A stretch of 64,000 nucleotides of DNA, from positions 21,200,001 to 21,264,000 of the forward strand of contig NC_056550.1 in NCBI RefSeq assembly GCF_910596095.1, written 5' to 3'. The notes beneath the pieces were generated by a model. The model did not search any database. It saw only the letters and a program-made list of their open reading frames with translations, and had not been told where the DNA came from. Both the position numbers and the translations under genes were made by a program. This DNA is from Thunnus maccoyii (Eukaryota; Chordata; Actinopteri; Scombriformes; Scombridae). This document shows, one piece after another, positions 1,445-42,095 of this stretch. Position 1 is the stretch's first letter. Every line of letters starts with the position of its first letter.

Positions 1445-2936
1445 GCCCTCTCTGACCATACATATATTCGATATTGCCCGCGTGCCCTGAGCGCACATTG
1501 GCTGAGCTTTTTCGATTTCTATTTTTTGGTCCAATTAAAATCAAGCATTGGATCCGAGCGCATAGCAACGTCCGACCTCGCACCCTCTCCCATATTTCAG
1601 ACTATAATAGTGTATTAACATGAGGCCTTATTGTACAGGTTGTCCTGTTATTGTGTCCACCTGAGGTATATCCATGTTGATATTAATTAAAATAATTTAA
1701 AGAAATTCATATGTGCACATGATATAGAATACCTTATATTATTATCATTATTATACTTTTATATTATATTATATTTTACTTTCTGTATTTTGCATATAAT
1801 GACATTTTTTACTATATTGACTTTCTGTAACATTGTAATAAATGCAATATTTGCAGTATTTTGTATATTTTTCGTCAATCAAATTCTGTTTTATTTTGGT
1901 TTTGTTTGTTTTGCTCTGTTTTTCTTTTGTCAGTAAAGTTTATTTGAGGTAACTTCAGTTCAATTCAAATACATTTCAATTCAATTTAATCCTATGGTTA
2001 TTTATCAATTACCTAGCGTACACTATGTAACTGATTGATTGACAAACTTTGATGTGGAATGACATGACATGGACACTAGGTGGGGAAGTCCACCTCCTCC
2101 TCCTCATCCTTAACCTCCTCCTCCTCCACCACCCATGGACAAATGGGGAACAAGAAAGTCTGGTTGGGCCACGCAATCCAGCTGTGGTGTCAAGTTAGAC
2201 AATGTTAGCGAGAAAACGACCAATTCCCAAGCGACATCATCTTCAAAATGAAGGCAGACACTTTGCCAAAGTGTCTGAGGTATAGAGACTTTAATATCAT
2301 TATCAAAATGGGACGTCACTGCCGTCCACTTGTATGATTATGATTATGATACTGTATTTAATTTGTTCTACTATGGATCATATTTTTATGTTGACGTATT
2401 ACGTTGTGTATTGAAGTGGATGAATGGATGCAATCAAATAAATGATGATCAATCAATTCTGGAATAATTTAGATAGATAGATAGATAGATAGACTTTATC
2501 TAACCAAGTTAACATAACATATGCTTAACATAAGTTTTTGTTGAGCTATTTGAAAGACTCTTATGAAAAAAATATCAGTGCTATGTTGCACAACAAAAAT
2601 GATATCTTAGCATAAAATCCTACAAGTTACTCTAACGAATATTTGACAATGAGGGTTTCTTTTTTTTTGGAAGTTAAAACCGGAAGTTCCTTTCTTAATG
2701 TTGCTCCCTTGACAATGGTGAAGGAGTCGGAGTTGCGGAAAAGAAAAAAGTCCTCCAGAAGCGTTCAAAGCGGCGACTAAGCACAACGGGGACGGAGTTC
2801 AGGTCTTTTACCACTAGACTTTTCCCCCTTTAGTAAGTTACTCTCGCTCAAAAGCTGCTTACAGAACTGATGATACGTACTAAACTGGTTTATAACACAC
2901 CTATCAGGCTAAAGTTGTTGTCTTAAACTTGGGAAG
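1445..2936. other. Divergent intergenic region between the meioc-like and Frizzled genes
   Basis: No coding exon is visible. The region is AT-rich with T-runs and a (TCC)n-like stretch near 2092-2130. It must hold the meioc-like promoter at its left end and the Frizzled promoter and 5' UTR at its right end (about 2690-2936). A WWCAAAG word (ttcaaag, 2764-2770) lies in the latter. No TATA box is obvious. Confidence 0.5.
2471..2493. repeat. (GATA)n microsatellite
   Basis: About six uninterrupted GATA units lie between the divergent meioc-like and Frizzled genes. Confidence 0.95.
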
Positions 2937-4574
2937 ATGATTTTTTGCAAGACCTGGTTTCTTGCACTCCTGCTGCCTCTGCTGATATCAGCTCAGTATC
3001 AAGGGGACAACGGAATAGTCGTCCCGGAGCATGGATTTTGTCAGCCAATTTCAATACCTCTGTGCACGGACATAGCCTACAACCAAACCATCATGCCCAA
3101 TTTAGTGGGCCATTACAACCAGGAGGACGCAGGGCTCGAGGTGCACCAGTTTTATCCCCTGGTAAAGGTACAGTGCTCGCCGGAGCTGAAATTCTTCCTG
3201 TGCTCCATGTATGCGCCTGTATGCACAGTTTTGGAGAAGGCTATTCCTCCCTGCAGGTCAATCTGTGAGAGAGCCAAACAGGGCTGTGAGGCACTTATGA
3301 ACAAGTTTGGCTTCCAGTGGCCGGACAGACTGCGCTGCGAGAACTTCCCTGTGCTGGGAGATGGACAAATCTGCGTGGGACAAAACGACTCCTCTGCTGC
3401 CACCGTCCCACCCATCATACCTGCCCCGGGAAGCCACGACATCTCCACGGTCTCCACAGATGAGAGGCCTTTCCATTGCCCGTCTGTTCTCAAAGTTCCC
3501 CCATATTTGAATTATAGGTTTCTAGATGAGAAGGATTGTGCAGCTCCTTGTGAGCCATCAAGGGGCGGCGGGTACATGTTTTTCAGTGACAAAGAGATTC
3601 ATTTCTCCCGCTTATGGATTCTGGTTTGGTCTGTACTTTGTTGTGCATCTACTTTATTCACAGTTACTACTTATTTAGTTGACATGCAGCGCTTCAGATA
3701 CCCTGAGCGACCTATTATCTTCCTGTCTGGCTGCTACACTATGGTCTCCATAGCCTACATAGCTGGCTACTTCCTGGGGGACAAGGTGGTGTGCAATGAC
3801 AGCTTCAGCCCTGATGGCTATAAGACAATTGTCCAGGGCACCAAAAAGGAAGGCTGCACCATCCTCTTTATGATGCTCTATTTCTTCAGCATGGCCAGTT
3901 CCATCTGGTGGGTCATCCTGTCTCTCACCTGGTTCCTGGCAGCAGGTATGAAGTGGGGTCATGAGGCTATTGAGGCCAACTCTCAGTATTTTCACCTAGC
4001 TGCCTGGGCAGTGCCGGCGGTCAAGACCATCAGCATCCTGGCCATCGGACAGATCGAGGGTGACGTGCTCAGCGGCGTCTGCTTCGTCAGTCTCACCAAC
4101 TTGGATCCTCTACGGGGCTTCGTGTTGGCCCCTCTCTTCATTTATCTCTTCATCGGGACCTCTTTCTTGTTGGCCGGCTTTGTGTCGCTGTTCCGAATCC
4201 GCACCATCATGAAACACGACGGCACCAAGACAGAGAAGCTGGAACGTCTGATGGTGCGGATCGGAGTATTCAGCGTGCTCTACACCGTCCCCGCCACCAT
4301 TGTTATTGCCTGCTTCTTCTACGAGCAGGCCTTCCGCCCCCACTGGGAGCGCAGCTGGGTCAGCCACAACTGCAGGAGCCTGGACTTCCCCTGTCCTGCT
4401 CAGGCCGGGCTCCGCATGACCCCTGACTTCACTGTCTACATGATCAAGTATCTGATGACGCTCATAGTGGGCATCACCTCTGGTTTCTGGATCTGGTCTG
4501 GGAAGACCCTGCACTCTTGGCATAAATTCTACTCAAGGCTGACATTTGGCAAACATGGAGAGACCACTGTGTAG
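2937..4574 (+). CDS. fzd2: Frizzled Wnt receptor, FZD1/2/7 subfamily, closest to FZD2
   Basis: This is a single-exon gene for 545 residues, the usual form for the FZD1/2/7 group. Residues 1-19 are a hydrophobic signal peptide. The extracellular cysteine-rich Wnt-binding domain follows (about 30-150) with the family blocks [17 protein letters not shown] and [16 protein letters not shown] short linker leads to seven membrane segments (about 225-520). The Dishevelled-binding KTxxxW motif is KTLHSW at 523-528, and the tail ends in the PDZ ligand ETTV. The receptor binds Wnt at the plasma membrane and signals through Dishevelled to beta-catenin or planar-polarity routes. FZD2 is favoured over FZD7 by [10 protein letters not shown], the ETTV end and the meioc-like neighbour; FZD7 usually ends in ETAV. 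Fish carry several close paralogues, so fzd7 or fzd1 is not excluded. All key motifs look intact. Confidence 0.93.
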
Positions 4575-28000: not shown

Positions 28001-30830
28001 TAAAGAAAAACAAAGGGATTATATAGATTTTTCTTTCTTACATGTATGCAAGTACAGAAAGATATAAAAGTGCAGTGTGATAAATACACATTGCTATATA
28101 CACACCTGTAGGTTGTATCGCATATAGAGGCAAAGCTCTAGAGTCAAGATGACATGATCATTAAAGTTGTGAAGACCATCTCGCCATTCCTGGTACCGGT
28201 AGTCCATGTGGCATTTAGGGCATCTTTTATTGTAAGTCGAGATGTCTGCAGTGAGTAGAAGAATAAAATCAGGACATCGAATCAGCAGTACGTGGTCAGT
28301 CCATGATGTATTTTACTTACTGTGATTTACACCATTCATGCTGACTATTGTAGCTTTGTCTGTGATGAGAAATCCATCTTCTAATCTGGGATGGCCTTGA
28401 CAGAGCTTGCATGTTTCTTCAGTAGGAATCAAACATGCAGGATAATCTGTCAGTGCTCTTGGTGCAGTGGCATCTCCAGGAAGAGTTGCAGGTATTTTCT
28501 TCTCTGCATAAGTGTATCTCACACTTCTCTCCAGCTCTGTGGTAGCAGGATTACTGTGAGACTGAAATGTCTCTTGCGTTGAAGCGGGCAGGAGGTCTTT
28601 CCTAGTTTGAAACACGTGCCACTTACCGATGCTCTTGTGTGGACATGATTTACGAGGGTTGGTACAGGGGCAATGCCAGGTTTGTTTTTTCAAGTTATAA
28701 GTGACTATAACTCTCCCAAAGGAGGAGAAACTGCGTATTTTGGGCTCATGCACAGAGAGACAAAGTTGATGTGTGGAACCTCCCAAATCCACCAACACAG
28801 AAAAAGGCACATGGTCTTTCTCTGCTCCTTTTTGCCTCAATTTGCAGGTTGCCATCATAGATTCTTCGACAATATGCAGAGACACCAATTCCTCAAGAAC
28901 CTCCGGATTAAGAAACTCCTCGCAAGCAATCTTGGTGCAGTAATCCAGCGATCGAATGTGCTCACACAAGCTGTAAATTAGCCCACTCTGCTTTGCAAGC
29001 AACTGGTACTTGTGACATTCCTCCAACCCACATTTTATCTGATGATGTTTTCCCCATGTTTTGCGCTGTACATGTATCGGCACAGAGAACCCATGAGCAA
29101 CTCTTTGGACAGCAAATATTCCACGTGTTTCATCAACACACACGTTTTTAAGATGTGAAGCAGCAGTAATATCCTTTAGCCCCCCATGCTTCCTCTTTAT
29201 GTGGGCACCCAGGTTTTTCTTGTAAAGACGAAGCGAGCAGTGAGGGCACCGCACTAATCTTAAACTTCTGATACCGTAAGACGGCAGCGTCATTGTGTCA
29301 GGATACGATGCAGCATCCTTAACTGAGCCCTCGGGTGAACGAGCATCTGTGCTCGAGGCCTCTGGTTGTGAAGCTGCGGGGATATCGCTGGATACTGGTG
29401 AAGCTACAGGGGAGTGGAGAGAAACTGAGGGTGGAAGCGTATAACAATGGTCTTGCTCTACTACTGATGTATTACACTCCATAGGCTCCTCCAGCAGATT
29501 CAACAGGCTTGGGTGAGGCTCTGAGTTGGGTACTGCCAGTGTCGTAGCTGGAGAAGGGGGTAGTGCTGATGTCGTAGCTGGAGGAGGGGGTACTGCTGTT
29601 GTCACAGATGGAGAAGGGGCAACTACTGATGTCACAGATGGAGAAAGGGGCACTGCCGATGTAGCATGTGGGGGTTCTGGTGATTTTGCAGGTGGAGAAG
29701 GGGGTACTGCTGCCGATGTTGTCGCTGAAGAAGGGCATCTTGAAATCTCCTGGGAAGCAGCAGTGCAGAGTAGTGATGGCAATAAGAGTGGTTCCAATGT
29801 GAGTGATGGAGGAGGTTTATTTTGACATCCGAGCGCATGGCTTTCCATATCTTCCCTCCGTATGATTGTTTTTTCACAGTAGGGGCAATGATAATGACCC
29901 GTGAGTCTGCATGGCTGATTGCATCTGCAGATGATGTTATCTGCAAGAGGACACAGAGCAACAGTAACTACAACCTTAACTACAATATTAAATAATCAAT
30001 AAATATATGTAAGTTCTACAGCTAAGACAGTCGACTTACCTTTAACATGCAATGCAGTGCTGATATGGCAATCCATGTGTCTCTGGATCTTCTTGCTGGT
30101 AGTTGGCTTGAATTTGGGACACAGAAGGCAGTGAAACAAAGTCTTGCTGATATTTGAGCACTGTATTTCGAACTGGCCCCCAGGTTTAACTATTGATTGG
30201 TGGATCTGTAAAATAGCAATGTTTTACTTGTATTACAACTTTAGGACATTTTTAAAAACAACTTTACTGGAATAAGCTCAACAGAGGAAATACAGACATT
30301 GCTCTGCACACATATAGCATTTCTACAATTATAACATGAGGAAAGGAAAAAAATACAATTAACAAAATATATGAAATAAAATATAACAAAGATTTGACAA
30401 AACATTAAACGTGCTTCATGATGTCTTCCAGAGGAATGCCAGCTTTGTGTTGCAAAGATTGTTTAGTGATGCATAACATAATAATTAGAAAACCTTAGTT
30501 TGTTGTTGTTGCAGACAACGACGTTTATTACAGTCATTCACGGTTCTGTTATCAGTATGAACCACAGTCAGTGGCATGAACAAATAAAAACTAGGTACAT
30601 TGTAAAAATCTTAGAGAGACATTGTATATTATGGCTTTGAACCTTGTGTCAACTGAAGACTTTTTGGCTTAATTGTCAACATTAATGCTAGCTATTCCGT
30701 CCGCATACATGGGAACAGCTAACGCTAACTACAACAAAGTATAAAAGCGCTTTGAAATGACATGTTTAGCACTGAGGACTGCAGCTCTGATGAGATGTTA
30801 GTCTAGTTTATAATCACTTACTTTGACCAT
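25049..30830 (-). CDS. HMGXB3-like, KDZ/Zisupton-transposase-derived zinc protein
   Basis: Ten exons on the minus strand join in frame into 1,088 residues: 30830-30822, 30205-30040, 29940-28321, 28245-28106, 27997-27793, 27673-27569, 26463-26276, 25969-25828 and 25740-25049, counted as nine coding blocks here. The parts are: a C2H2-like N-terminus (CLLCPKF and a His pair), a Cys cluster CRCNQPC, a Pro/Ser/Thr-rich repeat region (about 130-200), a finger CPHCSLRLYK (about 290-310), a SWIM zinc motif CPCTNPRKSCPH (482-493), CPKCHMDYRYQEW (about 610), SCVNCGFSP followed by MMDIHRN (about 700), RPSYERWAPWIG, and SCPHGIVYSL with CLYDSAHGLATH in the last exon. These blocks follow HMGXB3 and the Cys-cluster and RNaseH-like parts of KDZ DNA transposases. 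No HMG box is seen. The Asp of MMDIHRN and of LYDSAHG may be catalytic, which is inference. The frame is unbroken and splice sites are good. Confidence 0.8.
27192..27271 (-). other. Candidate alternative exon of the HMGXB3-like gene
   Basis: A minus-strand stretch with an AACAG acceptor before 27271 and an AAG|GTAAAA donor at 27192 would encode NAWSAGALQFGDPANLEL and on. It accepts the phase of the upstream exon (phase 1) but ends in phase 0, while the next exon (26463) needs phase 1. Skipping it gives the intact 1,088-residue protein; including it would shift the frame and stop within about 40 codons. It may be a regulated or poison exon, or chance. Confidence 0.3.
29525..29740 (-). repeat. 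Tandem Pro/Ser/Thr repeat inside the HMGXB3-like gene
   Basis: Imperfect units of about 33-36 bases encode repeats of the type TSAVPPSPSVT on the minus strand; six or so units are visible. The repeat sits between the N-terminal Cys clusters and the middle zinc finger and is probably a disordered linker. Such an array is likely to vary in length between individuals. Confidence 0.75.
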
Positions 30831-31258: not shown

Positions 31259-31309
31259 TTAACTGTATATAAATATATATATATAGACATATACAGTCAG
31301 TGGTTCTGC

Positions 31310-31570
31310 CTAGTGTCTAGCCAACTTGTCCATTTCAATTGCTAAATAGTATAGGTCTATATTCGGAAGTGCCAATCCTCCCCTTTACCTAGGGGTGCAC
31401 TTTTTTTTAAAGTTAATCCTCAGCCTTTTCCCATTCCCATAAGTAATCTTTAACTTTTTGATTATATTGTTTCAACTTATCTGATAAAGATATTTATCTT
31501 GCCCCAAAGCATGAGGTTAATTGCTTTCCACCTATCCAGATTGTTTTTTTATCTTTTGAAGTAATGGTGC
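31310..31570 (-). mobile_element. L1-type LINE ORF2 fragment, opposite orientation, copy A
   Basis: Read on the minus strand, pieces resemble the L1 ORF2 block around DRWKAINLMLWGKI. It is broken by frame changes. A second copy with the same junctions lies at 37858-38190 because the whole segment was duplicated. Confidence 0.55.
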
Positions 31571-32214
31571 AAAATAATATTATACCTGGCTGGGTGGCAC
31601 ATGCTGTCAACTGGGTGGCGGCACAGGATAACTGGTTAGGTGGTTTCTGGTTTTGGGTGGGGTTACCTGGGGAAGAGATGGCGCCAGGATGCACTATGGG
31701 AAGAAGGCAATCAGGCAAGGGTAGTGTGATGCTCTGGGCAATGTTCTGCTGGGAAACCTGGCATTGATTTGGATGTTACTTTGACACATACCACCTACCT
31801 AAACATTGTTGCAGACCAAGAACACCCCTTCATGGCAACGGTATTCCCTGATGGCAGTGGCCTCTTTCAGCAGGATAATACACCCTGCCACACTGCAAAA
31901 AATTTTCAGGAATGGTTTGAGGAAAATGACAGAGTTCAAGGTGTTGCCTTGGCTTCCAAATTCCCCAGATCTCAATCCAATCAAGCATCTGTGGGATGTG
32001 CTGGAAAAACATGTCCAATCCACGGAGGCCCCACCTTGCAACTTACAGGTCTTAAATGATCTGCTGCTAACGTCTTGGTGCCAAATACCAGAGGACATCT
32101 TTAGACGTTGGAGGAGTCCATGCCTTGATAGGTCATCTGTATTGGCGGAACGAGGGGAACCTACACAATATTAGGCAGGTGGTTTTAATGTTGTGGCTGA
32201 TTGGTGTAGGCCAA

Positions 32215-33098
32215 TAATACATCCATGGGCTTATCATGTATCTTGTCAAATCTGTGGACAATATTGCCAATTTCTTGATAACTGGCTTGTCAAAAAATGT
32301 GAAAATAAAATAAACCTAAAAGTTTGACTTGTCGGACAAGATGAAGATGAATAACATTAATCTAATTTTCTCATCATCCACTGCATTGATGGGACAAAAG
32401 ACCACAATCATATTGAAATTGCTGTTCTATCAATTGTAAAAAAAAAAAAAGAGACAATCTGTCTACAAATCATGTGAACACATATTTTAACATTTTTTAC
32501 GTAATATCCAAGGATTGTCGTTGGCATGCATGACATAGACCTTCACCTCAGGACAGCTGACATGATCCACAGTAAACTTAACCCCTCTTGTAATTTTCAG
32601 TGTGTCTAGATGTGTACACTATGTAAATGTTCCAGGCAGAGATGAAAGGTGCCAGCCATCTTAGTAAATTGCCTCATTGGCTTACATAATAGTTGTTTTT
32701 CTTCATTGTTCAAGGGTAGATTAATATCTGTAAAGCCTACTATTCTTGCAACACAGAAAATGCAGTTATAAAAAAAACTCACAGGCAACAGTATTTGTGG
32801 ATTTTATTGTATTTATTATCTATTGACTATGTTGAATTATACCTTCTTTATGTGCATTTTTTACCCTCAGTACACATAACCACACTTAGTTACTTTTTGT
32901 ATAACTTCACAAGAAACATTTCTACATGAAATCACATTTTTTCACAATTGTCTATTAATACCCAGATATTCATAAAATATTTCAAACAGTTTGTTTGACT
33001 AATTGCACGAACATTATATAATTAGTTTGGCTTGTGTGTGAATATTTTTTTTAGTGCCACAAATCCTCTTCCCATTTGGCAGTATGAATAATATGAGA
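32215..33098. other. Non-coding stretch between the Tc1 relic and C1q gene A
   Basis: AT-rich, with no gene or recognised repeat. Its left 700 bases are absent from copy B; the homology resumes near 32945 (tctattaatacccagatatt). Confidence 0.6.
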
Positions 33099-33102
33099 TG
33101 TA

Positions 33103-33108
33103 TTTATT
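33103..33108 (-). terminator. Candidate polyadenylation signal, C1q gene A
   Basis: AATAAA on the minus strand about 52 bases after the stop. The same word is kept in copy B at 38556-38551. Confidence 0.55.
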
Positions 33109-33159
33109 TTATCGTAAGAGCATTAGGAGCCAGGCAGACCTGAAATCATGTTGTTTGAA

Positions 33160-34043
33160 TCACATGGTGAAGAGCAGAAAACCACTGAAGGTGTTGTAAT
33201 TCATGCTATCATCATAGATGATCCTGTGTGCCTGGAGCTCCACATATACGTTATCTCCCACGTCCAGGGGGATGACCGCAGCATTGCTGCCCATGTCGTT
33301 GCTGTCAGTCCCAGATGTGTCCCAGACAGATGTCAGCCTCACACCGTTCTTCATGAGGCTCACAACAGAGTTGGCATGAGGATTGATGTTGTTGAACATC
33401 GAGAATCGAAAGAAGTACATTCCTTTGACCATCGCTGTGAAAATGCCTGTCAAAAAAAGGAGAATGGTTTACATTTAATGAGTCCTTATATGTCTGTCTC
33501 TCTCTCTCTCCTTCTATGTCTTTCTCTGTCTGGCACACTACCTGTTGAAGGATTGTAGCCACTGCCAGTGTTGGAGAAGACCTTCTTATACTGCAGTGGG
33601 GTATTAGCAGAGATAGGCCCAGTGTTTCCAAAGCCAGAATCCCTGAGAGCTGCTGAAAAGGCCACTTGAGGTGCACCTGAGACCATCAAATTACCACAAA
33701 CACATCAGAGGTTAGAACTGATAAAAAGATCAGGGAAGAATTATATCTCCTTGTTATAACCCACTAAAAACATTTGCCATATTTTACCTTCAATCAGGCT
33801 CCGCAGCTCCAGGACTTCTTTCCCAGTGTTTTGCAACTTCTCCTCCAGGTGTGTTATTTTTCCCACCATGTTTGCTACTTTCTCTCCCACTGCCCCCAGG
33901 GTTTGACTTATGGAAGTGAGGGAGCAGGTATCAGAGCAGCTGGTTGATCCTGGGTACAGAGAGACCTTGTCATTGTTTTTGTCGGCTTGTGCTTCACATA
34001 GCCAGCAGCTGAACGCAAGAATCAGGACTGACACTCTCATCAT
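33160..34043 (-). CDS. Secreted C1q-domain protein, copy A
   Basis: Three minus-strand exons (34043-33788, 33676-33542, 33446-33160; both introns phase 1) encode 225 residues. Residues 1-20 are a signal peptide (MMRVSVLILAFSCWLCEAQA). A Cys-bearing segment and a short coiled coil follow (about 45-85, with LGAVGEKVANM and EEKLQNTGKEV). The C1q globular domain fills the rest from about 88: APQVAFSAAL, the block FRFSMFN, SVVSLMKNG and FSGFLLFTM at the end. There is no collagen repeat, so this is a secreted globular-head C1q-like (cerebellin-like) protein. Such fish proteins form trimers and often act in innate recognition, but the ligand cannot be told from sequence. A TATA box lies 58 bases upstream. 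Gene B is its near-identical tandem duplicate. Confidence 0.9.
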
Positions 34044-34100
34044 CCTTGCAGTTTTGAAATCTCTGCTTCAATGTAGTTTTCCTCTTTCAAGTCTACCCCC

Positions 34101-34108
34101 CTTTTATA
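34101..34108 (-). promoter_or_regulatory. TATA box of C1q gene A
   Basis: TATAAAAG on the minus strand, 58 bases upstream of the ATG, implying a very short 5' UTR. The same box is kept in copy B. Confidence 0.7.
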
Positions 34109-34689
34109 CTCCACCTGACACTGTGCAACACAAGAAACACCGGTTACAGGAAACGCCCATTTAAAAAAGAAAACACTATCTCAGTTGGGAAAACCTACCC
34201 AAGTCCAAAAGGTGATTAATGACACTTATACAGCATGTTACTGGCAAAGTTTACAAAGTTCTTTATGTGTCTGAGATAATAAAACACTGCATACAGCAAG
34301 TTTAAAGACTTTTAAAATATGATATTGATTAAATACACTTGTTAAAATAGGACATTTTGCAATTTGTTAGCTTTGCCCCATGACTGCACTCTGGTTAACA
34401 GGGAACTAAAAAATCTACAGATAAGTACGTTTTACGATACAAACCTTGTCATACTTTAAAGTTAATCAAAACGTATCATATCTGCAACCAGTGTAGTGTC
34501 GCTGAAATTGGGAAGACAGGTGTTGATATTATATAATGATGCTTTCTATGTGCGTTAAATAATGTTTGAGTTTCTGGTTTATTTCAGGACAGTTTTCTAA
34601 TGTTTTTTTAAATTACTTAAATGTTTTGGTTGTACTTGTTTTCATGTTGATTGATACTGATAGTGTTCCTAGTGTGAATACTCATATGG

Positions 34690-34808
34690 CAAAAATGATG
34701 ACTGTGGATGAACGCGTATGAATGTGGGTGTGAATGGGTGAATGTGGCATGTAGTGTAAAGCACCTTGAGTGACTGAAAGACTATAAATGCAGCCCATTT
34801 ACCATTTA
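34690..34808 (+). mobile_element. SINE tail, copy A
   Basis: The sequence gtgtgaatgggtgaatgtgg followed by caccttgagtg and ctataaatgcagcccattta is the 3' module of a common fish SINE. The tRNA-like head is not recognisable here, whereas copy B keeps more of it. Confidence 0.65.
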
Positions 34809-34863
34809 CATATTGGTCTTTCTCAAGGAAAGTTCAATACAAGTGTCAGATACAGATACAGCC

Positions 34864-34867
<4 letters not shown>

Positions 34868-34934
<67 letters not shown>
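34868..34934. repeat. (TA)n(TG)n microsatellite, copy A
   Basis: About 23 TA units followed by about nine TG units. The matching tract in copy B is at 40785-40845. Confidence 0.95.
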
Positions 34935-35394
34935 CACACCCCACATCTGGTGGTAATGTACAATCAGTGACATCATCAGCAAGTTACAAAGATATAGTTG
35001 AGGTAACTGCAATTACTGAACATTAGAAAAAGTTAAGAGAATACATCAATACCTCTATCTATATACGTTTTGACATCAAGAGAAAAAAGTTCATGTAGTT
35101 TGATACATATTGTCAGGTAATATTACCAGGATTCACAGACATGATGTTATTAGTGCTTTTGCTCCTCTAATTGAGGTTTTTCCCTTTTGTGAAAGGAGAT
35201 CAAACAATGGATAATTGAGCTTGCACTGTACTCTCAGTTCGTACTCGTTAATTAGCCATGAGTTGTTTGGAATGTAAAACCAGTTCTTTTAATTCCACAA
35301 CATGAAAACAGACCATCACCTACCGAGTAAAGCTAGTTATTCTCGGAAGCTGAATACCTGAGCAGGAAGAATGTGTTGACTGTAGCCTCAGGTC

Positions 35395-35575
35395 ACCTGA
35401 GGAGTGTTTCATCACGCTGGCTAACAGGATAGTCTGGCTTATTTCGATAAACCTCGCTAATTTAAGTGGGAGGTCCTTTCCATCACTGCAGCTTATATGA
35501 GTCCCAGCTCAGTAACCATGGTAACTTAGCAGAACTAGCCTGCTCTGTGGCAGGCTAACGGTCAAGCTTAACTCA
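35395..35575. repeat. Short fish repeat with a hairpin end
   Basis: The stretch ends in agcctgctctgtggcaggct, a 7-base-arm inverted repeat, and contains a tctggcttatttcgataaac block typical of dispersed percomorph repeats. It is repeated in copy B at about 41320-41495. I cannot assign the family. Confidence 0.4.
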
Positions 35576-36165
35576 CTAAGACCAAGAAAGTGGATCATAT
35601 CACTCCAGTTCTCAGATCTTTACACTGGCTTCCTGTCTGTCAAAGAATTGACTTTAAGATATTGCTGTTGGTTTATAAAGCACTAAATACATCTCTGATC
35701 TGCTGCTACATTATGAACCATCTAGACCTCTCAGGTGGTCTGGGACAGGTCTGCTTTCTGTCTCCCAGAGTAAAAACTAAACATGGTGAAGCAGCTTTCA
35801 GTTTTTATGCTCCAAATATCTGGAACAAACTCCCAGAAAACTGTAGATCTGCTGCGACCCTCAGTTCTTTTAAATCGCAGCTGAAGACTTTTCTGTTTGC
35901 GGCTGCCTTTCATTAAACCACATTGAGGGTTAATGTATTACACTGCACTGTTACTTTTATTCTCTTGTTTTATCTGTCTTATTCCCTTTTAGCTTCTTTT
36001 TTATTTCCAAATTTAACACTTTTTAATTGTTTTTATATGTCTTTTTACTTGTGTTGCTTTTATTTTCTGTTTTAATGCCTTTTATGCTCTATGTAATGCA
36101 CTTTGAATTTCCTTGTTGTTGAAATGTGCTATACAAATAAACATGCCCCGCCTTGCCATGCCTTA
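35575..36165 (+). mobile_element. L2-type LINE, 3' end (5'-truncated)
   Basis: An open frame encodes the C-terminus of an L2/Maui reverse transcriptase: DHITPVLRSLHWLPVCQRID, KHGEAAFSFYAPNIWNKLPE and FKSQLKTFLFAAAF. The 3' UTR ends with ttgaaatgtgctatacaaat and a CTTGCC-like tail. Several RT blocks upstream are absent, as in most L2 copies. Copy B keeps only the first 115 bases (about 41497-41611). Confidence 0.85.
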
Positions 36166-36169
36166 ACAT

Positions 36170-37050
36170 AGCTGCATGTCAAAGAATGTCAGACAGACAG
36201 AAACAGACTCAAAAGACGGCTCCATCAAGTGTCTTTTCACACTCGCATCACTTGTCTGTGTTCAGGAAACATAAAATAGAAGAACCGTGAGGGACTTTTA
36301 CAAAAATACTTAAGTAAATCCCCATTTTATTCGTGTTTACTCCTGTATTGGACTAGACCCTTTTATTTAAAAGTCTAGCGTTTATAATTTAAGAAATAAA
36401 AGTGTGCCAGCGTTATTTTGAAGTTATTTATTTATTCATTCACTTATTTTGTTCAAGCTGTGAAGACAAAAAGAAAACGAAATAAAGGCCAAACCATGTC
36501 CTTCTGCTGTGTTTAAATGTATACAGTATTAACTCCTTTATAGTAAGCAAAATTCACCGCTCTCATCACCTGTTCTGCCGCCGGGGAAAAGAAGGAACAT
36601 GTCATTGGCAAAAGTCAGAACCTGCGGCTTCAAAAATGCTCACAATGTGTTTGAAACAGCTGTACTGTATTTTGAAACAGTCAGTAAAATTCAGTAAGTC
36701 TATATTCATGTAGAGTAATAAATCTCCAAATGTCAATTAGATGGTATTCTGCATGAGAAATAAAGACAAAAGGTTATGATATTATAGTGATATTTGATCC
36801 GGACAGACGTGATCACTAACCGGTATCCACTGTATTCATATCCTTCCCCAGTTTCTTTATCTCCAACTGCAACTTAATTTTTAACTTTCATTGACGCTTG
36901 TTAATGGACATTTTGTGAAAGAGAAAATGTGTCAAAGAGTATGATAATGCTGGTAAGTTGGTTCTCTTAAGTTGCTGACACTGTAATTTTAATTATACAT
37001 CTGATATTATCTAGCCAGTGATAATATAGCCACACTAATCTGAAGGGCAA
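36170..37050. other. Unique non-coding stretch between duplicated units
   Basis: AT-rich, with no gene or recognised repeat. It lies between the L2 tail and the next LINE fragment and is not duplicated. Confidence 0.6.
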
Positions 37051-37055
37051 TACTA

Positions 37056-37846
37056 TTGAATGCTCATTTATTAACAAATAAAGATAAAATCATGAACAGG
37101 GACAAGCGCTGCTCTTTACTTCCCCCAGACTCATCCAGCCGGATGTGGGGATTGAATCGTCATGGAGGGACAAACCAGTGGCTGGAAAAGGCTGGATTGA
37201 AAGACAGCACAGAGGCACTAATCATGGCAGCACAAGAACAGGCACTTAGTACAAGATCAATAGAGGCCACCACACCAGACAGGACCCCAGGTGCAGGCTG
37301 TGCAAAGATGCTCCTGAGACAGTTCAGCACATAATAGCAGGGTGTAAGATGAAGGCAAGAACAGCATACATGGAACACCATGACCAAGTGGCTGGCATAG
37401 TGTACAGGAACATCTGCACCGAGTATGGGCTGGAGGTCCCGAGGTCACAATGGAAGACACCTCCTAAGCTGGTTGAGAATGACCAAGCCAAGATCCAGAC
37501 TGACAAACTGGTGATGGCTAACCAACTGGACATCGTGTTGATTGACAAACAACAGAAGAAGGCAGTAGTGATAGACGTAGCAATCCCGAGCGACAGCAAC
37601 ATCAGGAAGAAAGAACACGAGAAGTTTGAAAAATACCAAGGGCTGAAAGAGGAGCTAGAAAAGATGAGGGGAGTAAAGGCAACAGTGGTGCCAGTGGTAA
37701 TTGGAGCACCAGGGGCTGTGAAACACAAACTGGTAGAGTGGCTCCAGCAGATTCCAGGTACAACATCTGAGGTCTCTGTCCAGAAGAGCGCAGTCCTAGG
37801 AACAGCTAAGATACTGCGCAGAACCCTCAAACAGACCGGAGCTTGA
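37056..37846 (+). mobile_element. R2-like LINE with restriction-like endonuclease, C-terminal fragment
   Basis: Two open pieces in different frames encode the C-terminal end of a fish LINE with a restriction-like endonuclease. The second, of about 165 residues, includes DIVLIDKQQKKAVVIDVAIP, which fits the PD-(D/E)xK core, and ends IPGTTSEVSVQKSAVLGTAK. The first residue of the PD pair is changed (LD in place of PD). It is 5'-truncated and frameshifted, and it directly abuts the left edge of duplication copy B. Confidence 0.75.
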
Positions 37847-37857
37847 GGAAGTTTCTG

Positions 37858-38190
37858 CCTAGTGTCTAGCCAACTTGGCCATTTCAAATGCTAAATTGTA
37901 TAGTTCTATATTTGGAAATGCCAATCATCCCCTTTCCCTAGGAGCACACATATTTTTTAATGTTAATCCTCAGCCTTTTCCCATTCTATAAGTAATTATT
38001 TGATTATATTGTTTCAATATCTTATCTGGTATAATCAGTTGGAAACGTCATTGAGATATAGTTAAATTGCGAGGCAACCACCATCTTAATAGTATTTATC
38101 TTGCCCCAAAGCATGAGGTTAATTGCTTTCCACCTATCCAGATGTTTTTTTATCTTTTGAAGTAATGGTGCAAAATAATATTATACCTGG
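37858..38190 (-). mobile_element. L1-type LINE ORF2 fragment, copy B
   Basis: The duplicate of the 31310-31570 fragment. It retains about 60 extra bases near 38030-38090 that copy A lacks, including the minus-strand equivalent of a TIKMVVAPQFN-like block. Confidence 0.55.
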
Positions 38191-38194
38191 CTGG

Positions 38195-38360
38195 GTGGCA
38201 CACGCTGTTGACTGGGTGGCGGCACAGGATAACTGGAGGCAAGGGTAGTGTGATGCCCTGGGCAATGTTCTGCTGGGAAACCTTGGGTTCTGGCATTGAT
38301 GTGGATGTTACTTTGACACGTACCACCTACCTAAACATTGTTGCAGACCAAGTACAAGTA
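38195..38360 (+). mobile_element. Tc1 relic, truncated, copy B
   Basis: It matches the transposase part of the Tc1 relic in copy A, from ctgggtggcacacgctgttg to catt-gttgcagaccaagtac. The right half and right terminal repeat are deleted. Confidence 0.75.
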
Positions 38361-38550
38361 CACCAAATCATTGTCTATTAATACCCAGATATTCATAAAA
38401 TGTTTCAAAAATTGTATTTTCATTTCCTAATTCACAGTTTGTTTGACTAATTGCACGAACATTATATAATTAGTTTGGCTTGTGTGTGAATATTTTTTTT
38501 AGTGCAACAAATCCTCTTCCCAATTGGCAGTATGAATAATATGAGATGTA

Positions 38551-38556
38551 TTTATT
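38551..38556 (-). terminator. Candidate polyadenylation signal, C1q gene B
   Basis: AATAAA on the minus strand about 52 bases after the stop, as in gene A. Confidence 0.55.
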
Positions 38557-38607
38557 TTATCGTAAGAGCATTAGGAGCCAGGCGGACCTGTAATCATGTT
38601 GTTTGAA

Positions 38608-39491
38608 TCACATGGTGAAGAGCAGAAAACCACTGAAGGTGTTGTAATTCATGCTATCATCATAGATGATCCTGTTTGCCTGGAGCTCCACATATACGTT
38701 GTCTCCCACCTCCAGGGGGATGACCACAGCATTGCTGCCCATGTCGTTGCTGTCAGTCCCAGATGTGTCCCAGACAGATGTCAGCCTCACACCGTTCTTC
38801 ATGAGGCTCACAACAGAGTTGGAAACACGATCGAGGTTGTTGAACATTGAGAATCGAAAGAAGTACATTCCTTTGACCATCGCTGTGAAAATGCCTGTCA
38901 AAAAAAGGAGAATGGTTTACATTTAATGAGTCCTTATATGTCTGTCTCTCTCTCTCTCCTTCTATGTCTTTCTCTGTCTGGCACACTACCTGTTGAAGGA
39001 TTGTAGCCACTGCCAGTGTTGGAGAAGACCTTCTTATACTGCAGTGGGGTATTAGCAGAGATAGGCCCAGTGTTTCCAGAGCCAGAATCCCTGAGAGCTG
39101 CTGAAAAGGCCACTTGAGGTGCACCTGAGACCATCAAATTACCACAAACACATCAGAGGTTAGAACTGATAAAAAGATCAGGGAAGAATTATATCTCCTT
39201 GTTATAACCCATTAAAAACATTTGCCATATTTTACCTCCAATCAGGCTCCGCAGCTCCAGGACTTCTTTCCCAGTGTTTTGCAACTTCTCCTCCAGGTAT
39301 GTTATTTTTTCCGCCATGTTTGCCACTTTCTCTCCCACTGCCCCCAGGGTTTGACTTATGGAAGTGAGGGAGCAGGTATCAGAGCAGCATGTTGATCCTG
39401 GGCACTGATGGACCTTGTCATTGTTTTCGTCAGCTTGTGCTTCAGATAGACAGCAGCTGAACGCAAGAATCAGGACTGCAATCCTCTTCAT
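38608..39491 (-). CDS. Secreted C1q-domain protein, copy B
   Basis: Three exons (39491-39236, 39124-38990, 38894-38608) of the same sizes as gene A encode 225 residues, all in frame. The signal peptide is MKRIAVLILAFSCCLSEAQA, followed by a coiled coil and a C1q domain. Compared with copy A about 20 residues differ. They cluster in the signal peptide and mature N-terminus (HQCPGSTCCSD against SLYPGSTSCSD) and in one C1q loop (NNLDRVSN against NNINPHAN). Exon 2 has a single visible replacement (Phe to Ser), and the introns are almost identical. A TATA box lies at the same distance. Copy B has extra Cys residues in its N-terminal segment, which could change oligomer bonding. Both genes look functional. 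Confidence 0.9.
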
Positions 39492-39548
39492 CCTTGTGGT
39501 TTTGAAATCTCTGCTTCAATGCAGTTTTTCTCTGTCAAGTCTAACCCC

Positions 39549-39556
39549 CTTTTATA
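39549..39556 (-). promoter_or_regulatory. TATA box of C1q gene B
   Basis: TATAAAAG on the minus strand, 58 bases upstream of the ATG, as in gene A. Confidence 0.7.
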
Positions 39557-40548
39557 CTCCACCTGACATTGTGCAACACAAGAGACACCAGTTTCAGGAA
39601 ACACCCATTTAAAAAAAAAACACTATCTCAGTTGGGAAAACCCACCCAAGTCCAAAAGGTGATTATTGACACTTATACAGCATGTTACTGGCAAAGCATA
39701 CAAAGTTCTTTATGTGTCTGAGATAATAAAACACTACATACAGCAAGTTTAAAGACTTTTAAAATATTATATTGATTAAATACACTTGTTAAAATAGGAC
39801 ATTTTGCAATTTGTTAGCTTTGCCCCATGATTGCACTCTGGTTAACAGGGAACTAAAAAATCTACAGATAAGTACAGTTACGATACAAACCTTGTCATAC
39901 TTCAAAGTTAATCAAAACGAATCATATCTGCAACCAGTGTAGTGTCGCTGAAATTGGGAAGACAGGTGTTGATATTATGTAATGATGCTTTCTATGTGTG
40001 TTAAATAATGTTTGAGTTTCTGATTAATTTCAGCACAGTTTTCTTTTGTTTTTTTGTTTTTTTTAATTACTTAAATGTTTAAATGGCAAAAATGATTATT
40101 TATTGAATTTTATTTACCTTTATTTATGCTGGACTTATTTTCATTTCATTATTTGTGTATTCATAAGGACAATGCACATGAATTAACATTTCTGCAACTG
40201 AGCCAGCTGGCTAAAGTTCTGAAACCAATTAATTAGCAAATTATTATGTTGTTCCAGACTGACTCTGACTTGGAATGAGTTTAACTCAGATTGTTGATTC
40301 AGTGAATCAGCAGTTACTGATTACCTGCTCAAGGGTATGCTGTATTTGAGAAAGCTTTCTGCAAGTCAGTGGTTCAAGTGAGGTGATGCTAATTATTGCC
40401 CGTATCACTAGGATTATATACTTTTCCTTTGGACTTATATTTTTGTCTCAGAATAACAATGCAAGATAAAAACAAAGATGTTTTTGGGGTGACTGACGGA
40501 TGTACACCCTTCTTATTCCCAATTTATATACTGTATATACTTACAGGG

Positions 40549-40720
40549 CAGCTGTGGCTAATCAGAAGATTCCCAGCTCCTCCAGTCCGCATGTCAAAGC
40601 GTCCTGCCATCAGTGTATGAATGTGGGTGTGAATGGGTGAATGTGGCATGTAGTGTAAAGAACCTTGAGTGGCCAAAAGACTAGAATGGCGCTATATTAA
40701 TGCAGCTCATTTACATATTG
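40549..40720 (+). mobile_element. SINE, copy B
   Basis: It has a degenerate tRNA-like head (gcagctgtggctaatcagaa, then attcccagctcctcc) and the same tail module as the 34690 copy (gtgtgaatgggtgaatgtgg and cgctatattaatgcagctca). Confidence 0.65.
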
Positions 40721-40757
40721 GTCTTTCTCAAGGAAAGTTCAATACAAGTGTCAGATA

Positions 40758-40782
40758 CAGCCTTACATATATATATGTAAGG

Positions 40783-40785
<3 letters not shown>
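40758..40785. repeat. Perfect 28-base palindrome at the edge of a TA tract
   Basis: The arms CAGCCTTACATATA and TATATGTAAGGCTG are perfect complements with no spacer. The matching place in copy A has only one arm, so the second arm arose after duplication. Confidence 0.9.

Positions 40786-40845
<60 letters not shown>
40785..40845. repeat. (TA)n(TG)n microsatellite, copy B
   Basis: A TA tract of about 45 bases followed by a short TG tract. It adjoins the palindrome and will fold back on itself. Confidence 0.95.
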
Positions 40846-41611
40846 CACACCCCACATCTGGTGGTAATATACAATCAGTGACATCATCAGCAAGTTACAA
40901 AGATATAGTTGAGGTAACTGCAATTACTGAACATTAGAAAAAGTTAAGAGAATACATCAATACCTCTATCTATATACGTTTTGACATCAAGAGAAAAAAG
41001 TTTATGTAGTTTGATACATATTGTCAGGTAATATTACCAGGATTCCAGACATGGTGTTATTAGTGCTTTTGCTCCTCTAGTTGAGGTTTTTCCCTTTTGT
41101 GGAAGGAGATCAAACAATTGATGATTGAGCTTGCACTGTACTCTCAGTTCGTACTCTGTTCAGTTTAATTAGCCATGAGTTGTTTGGAATGTAAAACCAG
41201 TTCTTTTAGTTCCACAACATGAAAACAGACCATCACCTACCGAGTAAAGCTAGTTATTCTCGGAAGCTGAATACCTGAGCAGGAAGAATGTGTTGACTGT
41301 AGCCTCAGGTCACCTGAGGAGTGTTTCATCACGCTGGCTAACAGGATAGTCTGGCTTATTTCGATAAACCTCGCTAATTTAAGTGGGAGGTCCTTTCCAT
41401 CACTGCAGTTTATATGAGTCCCAGCTCAGTAACCATGGTAACTTAGCAGAACTAGCCTGCTCTGTGGCAGGCTAACGGTCAAGCTTAACTCACTAAGACC
41501 AAGAAAGTGGATCATATCACTCCAGTTCTCAGATCTTTACACTGGCTTCCTGTCTGTCAAAGAATTGACTTTAAGATATTGCTGTTGGTTTATAAAGCAC
41601 TAAATACATCT

Positions 41612-42095
41612 ATATATATATAATGTGTGTGTAGTGTACACCCCACATCTGGTGGTAATCTACAATCAGTGACATCATCAGCAAGTTACAAGGATATAGT
41701 TGAGGTAACTGCAATTACTGAACATTAGTAAAAGTTAAGAGAATACATCAATATCTCTTATTTATATGTGTTTTGGCACCAAGAGAAAATCATTTATGTA
41801 GTTTGATATATACTGTCAGGTAATATTACCAGGATTCCAGACATGATGTTATTATTGCTTTTGATCCTCTAGTTGAGGTTTTTCCCTCTTGTGGGGGGAG
41901 ATCAAACCATGGAGTGAGTTTATACTGCGCTCTCAGTTTGTACTCTGTTCAGTTACATTAGTCATGAGTTGTTTGGATGAGTTCTTGTAGTTTCACAGCA
42001 TGAAAATAAACCATCACCCACCAAGTAAAGCTTGTTATTCTCAGAAGCTGAATACCTGAGCAGGAAGAATGTGTTGCCTGTAGCCTCACGTCGCC
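41612..42095. repeat. Third, partial and more diverged duplication unit (copy C)
   Basis: The segment from caccccacatctggtggtaa to gaatgtgttgcctgtagcct matches about 34935-35390 and 40850-41310, but with clearly more differences than A and B show to each other. It contains no C1q gene. It begins with a degraded TA/TG tract directly after the cut L2 fragment, so exchange at the microsatellite is a likely origin. Confidence 0.85.

Follow-up and report, generated by a model that had tools for sequence, protein, structure and literature searches.

Uneven divergence between two tandem C1q-domain genes of Thunnus maccoyii and a possible tract of older ancestry

Introduction

The cerebellins (Cbln1-4) carry a pair of cysteines, spaced i, i+4, before their C1q domain. 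In oysters, C1q genes expand by tandem duplication, according to the available part of a study of these genes (PMC6835236). Excerpts from two studies of infected trout report that some C1q-like or precerebellin proteins of fish are raised in liver or plasma, and that a second trout cerebellin isoform is unchanged in infection (PMC6167799, PMC10668809). Here we analyze two neighboring C1q-domain genes, A and B, from a 64,000-nucleotide stretch of the Thunnus maccoyii genome (NC_056550.1, positions 21,200,001 to 21,264,000), which we call the window; positions below are counted within it. As part of a C1q family that is known and expanding, the pair is unremarkable; its divergence profile is uneven. 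Our favored explanation, to which we give a probability of about 50%, is that the pair is a young tandem duplicate that carries a short tract of older ancestry, probably from a third paralogue.

Two intact C1q-domain genes in a tandem duplication

Genes A (33160-34043) and B (38608-39491) are head-to-tail neighbors on the minus strand. Both are intact, with three exons and a product of 225 residues. The exons of either gene have 256, 135, and 287 bases (the last including the stop codon), and the introns, which have GT-AG ends and are in phase 1, have 111 and 95 bases. Exons 1, 2, and 3 lie at 33788..34043, 33542..33676, and 33160..33446 in A and at 39236..39491, 38990..39124, and 38608..38894 in B. 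On the same strand, each gene has a TATAAA 65 nucleotides 5' of the ATG (34103..34108 in A, 39551..39556 in B) and an AATAAA 51 nucleotides 3' of the stop codon (33103..33108 and 38551..38556).

Both proteins match the Pfam family for C1q (PF00386), with 90.2 bits for A and 92.1 bits for B (the curated cut-off is 23.7 bits). The domain begins in exon 2 and the remainder is in exon 3. Exon 1 encodes a short cysteine motif as well as a putative signal peptide and a coiled-coil-like stretch, both judged by eye: a hydrophobic leader ends in Ala-X-Ala, and there is heptad-like spacing. No domain other than PF00386 was found at E values up to 0.001, and by eye, the translations lack a Gly-X-Y run as in collagen. 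The combination of signal peptide, short cysteine motif, coiled-coil-like stretch, and C1q domain, without collagen, is probably of a teleost type.

Self-BLAST places the genes in a tandem duplication, with matches of 32986-34609 to 38434-40055 and of 34716-35694 to 40615-41611. Unit A, which is the gene with its 5' flank, thus extends over 32986..35694 and unit B over 38434..41611; the match is broken at 34609-34716 in A and at 40055-40615 in B. Further matches link 31304-31824 to 37853-38356.

Divergence between the genes depends on position

A sequence-only reading of this locus had described a C1q pair with nearly identical introns, about 20 differences in exon 1, and divergence of almost a tenth upstream of the ATG. 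These counts were accurate: the copies differ at 20/256 positions in exon 1, 1/111 in intron 1, 1/135 in exon 2, 0/95 in intron 2, and 9/100 of the bases 5' of the ATG. Exon 3 has 11/287 differences and the adjacent 3' flank has 4/174. Within exon 1 the fall is abrupt, from 15/105 in codons 1-35 to 5/151 in the remainder.

We segmented the 1622 aligned columns of 32986-34609, which contain 66 substitutions, with free breakpoints and compared the fit to 200 permutations. At every number of segments from 2 to 6, the optimal segmentation beats 200/200 permutations, so the divergence is non-uniform after alignment, as the sequence-only reading had proposed. The rate heterogeneity is firm; its exact edges are not.

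The solutions with three, six, seven, or eight segments isolate an island at 34155-33941 in A (minus strand; 39389..39603 in B, via the alignment), where 26/215 columns differ. The island includes the TATA box and proximal promoter, the leader, the signal peptide, and the start of the cysteine motif. In the five-segment solution it is widened to 33851 (30/305). Its neighbors are less diverged, with 18/452 on the 5' side and 6/177 next on the 3' side. Then comes a near-identical middle (33401..33763 in A and 38849..39211 in B; 1/363), which covers most of intron 1, exon 2, intron 2, and the start of exon 3. It is followed by a small patch within exon 3 (33375..33400 in A and 38823..38848 in B; codons 146-155), where 7/26 bases differ.

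For the non-coding DNA alone, we used 1694 columns with 44 substitutions, including the outer 5' flank and excluding the noisy 34610-34939 and the far 3' flank. The peak of a sliding scan is just 5' of the ATG with windows of 100, 112, or 150 columns (P = 0.014, 0.008, and 0.018); with a 50-column window, the peak is elsewhere (P = 0.20). The 100 bases 5' of the ATG, a region singled out in the sequence-only reading, exceed the other non-coding columns (9/100 versus 35/1594, p = 8e-4), and so do the non-coding columns of the island (11/112 versus 33/1582, p = 8e-5, with edges that were picked from the data). Outside the island, the duplicated non-coding DNA is about 0-5% diverged, varying by stretch: 10/750 columns differ in the outer 5' flank (34940-35694) and 22/435 (5%) in the far 3' flank. 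Outside the genes, part of the outer 5' flank (35330-35694) is a further quiet stretch: it is near-identical between the units, with 1/365 aligned columns differing.

Silent sites diverge about as much as replacement sites

Across the whole gene, 29 codons differ and 23 of these encode different amino acids; exon 1 holds 14 of the 23, exon 2 holds 1, and exon 3 holds 8. Four of the 18 differing codons in exon 1 are silent (codons 3, 20, 34, and 56). By the Nei-Gojobori method, exon 1 has 4.5 synonymous and 15.5 nonsynonymous differences on 59 and 196 sites, for a ratio of nonsynonymous to synonymous divergence (dN/dS) of 1.04 (bootstrap range 0.38-4.73; Fisher p = 1.0). The ratio is 1.20 in exon 3 (2 synonymous and 9 nonsynonymous differences) and 1.16 for the whole gene (codon bootstrap 0.52 to 3.8); exon 2, with 0 and 1, has no ratio. 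Within exon 1, dN/dS is 0.61 for the signal peptide (codons 1-20) and 1.55 for the mature part (codons 21-85), where 0.27 of the bootstraps are at or below 1. In all five sets (exon 1, exon 3, the whole gene, mature exon 1, and the signal peptide), dN/dS is indistinguishable from 1 (Fisher p of at least 0.67). The upper bootstrap limit is undefined in three of the sets (exon 3, the mature part of exon 1, and the signal peptide), presumably because some resamples contain no silent change. Given so few changes, these tests have low power: they fail to show selection and do not exclude it.

The sequence-only reading had counted two or three silent changes in exon 1 and had taken the bias towards amino-acid changes as favoring selection. 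The silent share is larger than that (4/18 codons, or 4.5/20 changes), and few silent changes were noticed by eye because only about a quarter of the sites are silent. The same reading had named a ratio near or below one as evidence against its proposal, and 1.04 is such a ratio. With the sites counted, we reject an excess of amino-acid change in exon 1.

We also compared site classes within each block, with non-coding positions counted as silent. The distal 5' flank has 18/452 silent changes. In the island, silent and replacement sites are both raised (14.5/134.3 and 11.5/80.7). The counts are 2/60.7 and 4/116.3 for the rest of exon 1 and the start of intron 1, 0/226 and 1/137 for the middle, 1/4.8 and 6/21.2 for the patch in exon 3, and 5/223 and 3/166 for the remainder. 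Adding site class to a model with blocks raises twice the log likelihood by just 0.5 (p = 0.48, or 0.52 without the exon 3 patch), while adding blocks to a model with site classes raises it by 63. Because the block edges were drawn from the same data, p-values from the block model are inflated. Silent and replacement rates are similar within blocks, so it is position, not codon meaning, that sets the rate. Divergence at silent sites shifts abruptly with position, as expected for gene conversion, with uncertain edges. The divergence of exon 1 can be accounted for without positive selection on codons.

A proposed tract of older ancestry

We propose that a single C1q-domain gene was recently duplicated in tandem, giving rise to A and B, and that the ancestry of the island is a different and older one. 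The simplest route would be ectopic conversion into one of the genes from a diverged third paralogue. A smaller conversion between A and B may have wiped the middle clean. A functional difference, in cysteine number and in one loop of the C1q domain, would then be a possible by-product. We prefer an older tract because promoter, leader, silent, and replacement sites rise about equally, and selection on residues only would spare silent and non-coding sites. The sequence on either side of the island is less diverged, and elsewhere in the duplication the differences run from 1/365 through 10/750 to 22/435, which makes the island more plausibly an import than a remnant.

The upstream flank occurs a third time, without a C1q exon, at 41601..42092. 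This third copy is about 10% substituted relative to both units (47/480 versus the A flank and 48/491 versus the B flank), which suggests an older duplication here; it could be a relic of that duplication or a local flank repeat. This copy beside B is diverged roughly as much as the island. It adjoins the flank of unit B head to tail, at 41601-41611.

Several observations weigh against an imported tract. No donor was seen: with both genes as queries, tblastn and blastn found no third C1q copy in the window, which is the only fish DNA that we searched (matches other than A and B had E = 0.43 or worse). The additional flank copy may have arisen by local duplication of flank, without ever having had a gene attached. 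Similar silent and replacement changes would also be expected from a local mutation hotspot. The duplication is of uncertain age, given that the far 3' flank has 5% divergence of its own. The Bayesian information criterion is best at four segments (553.4, versus 559.3 for one and 554.9 for two), and the four-segment solution isolates the quiet middle and the exon 3 patch, not the island. Lastly, comparing the 9/100 differences 5' of the ATG with those elsewhere in the near 5' flank (20/464) gives only p = 0.076.

Scores do not settle which copy is derived, since their order is mixed across Pfam and solved structures. Among 37 solved chains, B scores above A for many, including the top chain, which has three domains (134.5 versus 119.8), and below A for some (54.2 versus 55.9 for caprin-2 and 46.4 versus 48.1 for collagen X). 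A pattern scan of a collection of viral contigs, from which the window's own genome was possibly excluded, matched 3 stretches, and 0 of them encoded a relative.

The loop, the cysteines, and positive selection

The sequence-only reading had also noted that changes in exon 3 cluster in one loop, which our analysis bears out. Residues 151-155 are INPHA in one copy and LDRVS in the other. With 8 of the 95 residues in exon 3 changed, a run of five adjacent changes has P = 0.0001 by shuffling, and 6/6 base changes in these codons are replacements. The cluster of 7 base changes in 26 has P = 0.0004 relative to exon 3 and its flank, or 0.017 relative to all columns. In the alignment to cerebellin-1 (5kca), residues 151-155 fall between two strands, which we take to be C and D, so that this would be the CD loop. 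Conversion of a short tract, one mutation of several bases, and selection would all account for such a cluster.

The N-termini differ as well. Beyond the signal peptide, B has four cysteines and A has two: in codons 30-40, cysteines are at 30, 35, 36, and 40 in B (39372..39404, minus strand) and at 36 and 40 only in A (33924..33956, minus strand). Judging from the sequences, this difference likely matters for disulphide-linked assembly. Together, the cysteine count and the five-residue change in the CD loop suggest that the two proteins may differ in assembly and binding. In a study of Cbln1 and Cbln4, divergence of the CD loop was reportedly proposed as the reason that GluD2 is bound by Cbln1 and not by Cbln4. 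The available part of another study describes receptor surfaces that differ between C1ql3 and Cbln1 (PMC12048575), so we cannot name the CD loop as the place where A and B bind their ligands.

These observations bear on whether the two copies have diversified in the mature N-terminus and the CD loop under positive selection, which we consider unlikely, though by no means far-fetched. The run of five changed residues, the lack of silent changes in codons 151-155, and the two extra cysteines in B are all in its favor, and in the oyster C1q expansion a few sites show episodes of positive selection (PMC6835236). On the other hand, none of the dN/dS ratios are distinguishable from 1, and the island has an elevated rate at silent and non-coding sites too. 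Also, 5/14 of the amino-acid changes in exon 1 are in codons 1-20, within the by-eye signal peptide, and therefore would not diversify the mature N-terminus. The bias towards amino-acid changes, from which the sequence-only reading argued for selection, is absent in exon 1 by its ratio; the loop cluster is real, and either micro-conversion or selection may explain it.

Other explanations for the mosaic

The sequence-only reading had offered another possibility: conversion between A and B homogenized the introns, exon 2, and more, and exon 1 and its near flank simply retained what had diverged since the duplication. Of the two readings offered there, this mosaic one has the better support, though not in the form given. 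The middle, at 1/363, is low compared to a baseline of 2.3% (P = 0.002, for a stretch chosen after the fact), and the longest identical run overall, of 230 columns, also has P = 0.002. Furthermore, the 5% divergence of the far 3' flank implies that the original divergence may exceed that of the near flanks. But the near 5' flank and the outer 5' flank are low as well, so conversion would have to span nearly the whole pair except for 215 bases, and even 5% is below the 12% of the island, which is unusually divergent rather than a leftover. The evidence for homogenized introns is weak: they are not significantly low relative to non-coding DNA outside the island (1/206 versus 32/1376, Fisher p = 0.11), and the longest stretch of non-coding identity (202 columns, P = 0.16) is not unusual and lies in the outer 5' flank, not in the introns. 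Overall, this explanation seems rather improbable.

A local mutation hotspot, or a relaxed promoter-proximal region, would require neither conversion nor selection. The similar silent and replacement rates in the island fit with this, as do its 14 transitions and 12 transversions, with no clear base bias (12 versus 9). It would not account for the abrupt fall inside exon 1, and it leaves the separate loop patch unexplained, so we have little confidence in it. An assembly artefact, with two haplotypes laid end to end, would fit with a pairwise divergence of a few percent and is very improbable, as the window has no N, the DNA between the units differs, each unit has its own insertions, and the island is 12% diverged.

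A broader speculation, which is quite a long shot, is that the array becomes diverse through the exchange of short modules. Ectopic conversion from paralogues not seen here would bring in the promoter, secretion signal, and cysteine motif as one piece and a new CD loop as a separate micro-patch, so that expression, oligomer form, and ligand choice would change independently. If so, the C1q arrays of fish would offer a tractable system in which conversion produces variants of assembly and of the ligand loop. The difference between two and four cysteines is open to a direct test. In any case, the pair is a small, clean case for counting silent sites before the divergence of an exon between duplicates is called selection.

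Other features of the window

A transposase remnant lies downstream of gene A (31304-32174) and again at 37853-38356 (a match to DDE_3 with E = 1.4e-4 that does not reach the curated cut-off; "Tc1-like" by eye). By the self-BLAST coordinates, the stretch next to gene B has about 1.1 kb less than the one next to gene A. Two retroelement-like remnants are between A and B: 37250-37846, with a match to zf-RVT below the cut-off (E = 9e-4), and 35572-35916, which was recognized only by eye and has no Pfam match. Farther away, an uninterrupted plus-strand frame of 553 amino acids (2913-4574) encodes a Frizzled receptor (Pfam Frizzled, E = 8e-139; Fz, E = 4e-35). A minus-strand open frame of 560 amino acids (28313-29995) appears zinc-finger-like, with only a sub-threshold match to zf-Di19, and has a short internal repeat at 29528-29662.

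Comparison with known systems

Residues 85-224 of A and B align to Cbln1 in 5kca, and like the cerebellins, both have a cysteine pair spaced i, i+4 before the domain. They differ from the cerebellins in that B has four N-terminal cysteines, and single Cbln1 domains score about 41-47 bits, as compared to 64 for C1QL2. Among the synaptic C1q-like proteins (C1QL1-4), C1QL2 is the pair's best single-domain match of solved structure (4qpy, E = 9.9e-17). C1ql3 has a collagen-like domain, as stated in the available part of its description (PMC12048575), and none was seen in A or B. The likeness to the precerebellin and C1q-like acute-phase proteins of trout is that all are C1q-domain proteins of fish, by description and not by sequence.

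The sC1q-like type II proteins of the oyster classification (PMC6835236), which are secreted and have a coiled coil but lack collagen, are similar to A and B in having a signal peptide and a coiled-coil-like stretch (both putative, by eye, in our pair), one C-terminal C1q domain, and near-identical tandem paralogues. A and B are a single pair at what is probably a vertebrate-type locus. In the oyster group shown in that study (PMC6835236), the intron diverges faster than the exons, whereas between A and B, exon 1 and the promoter diverge more than the introns.

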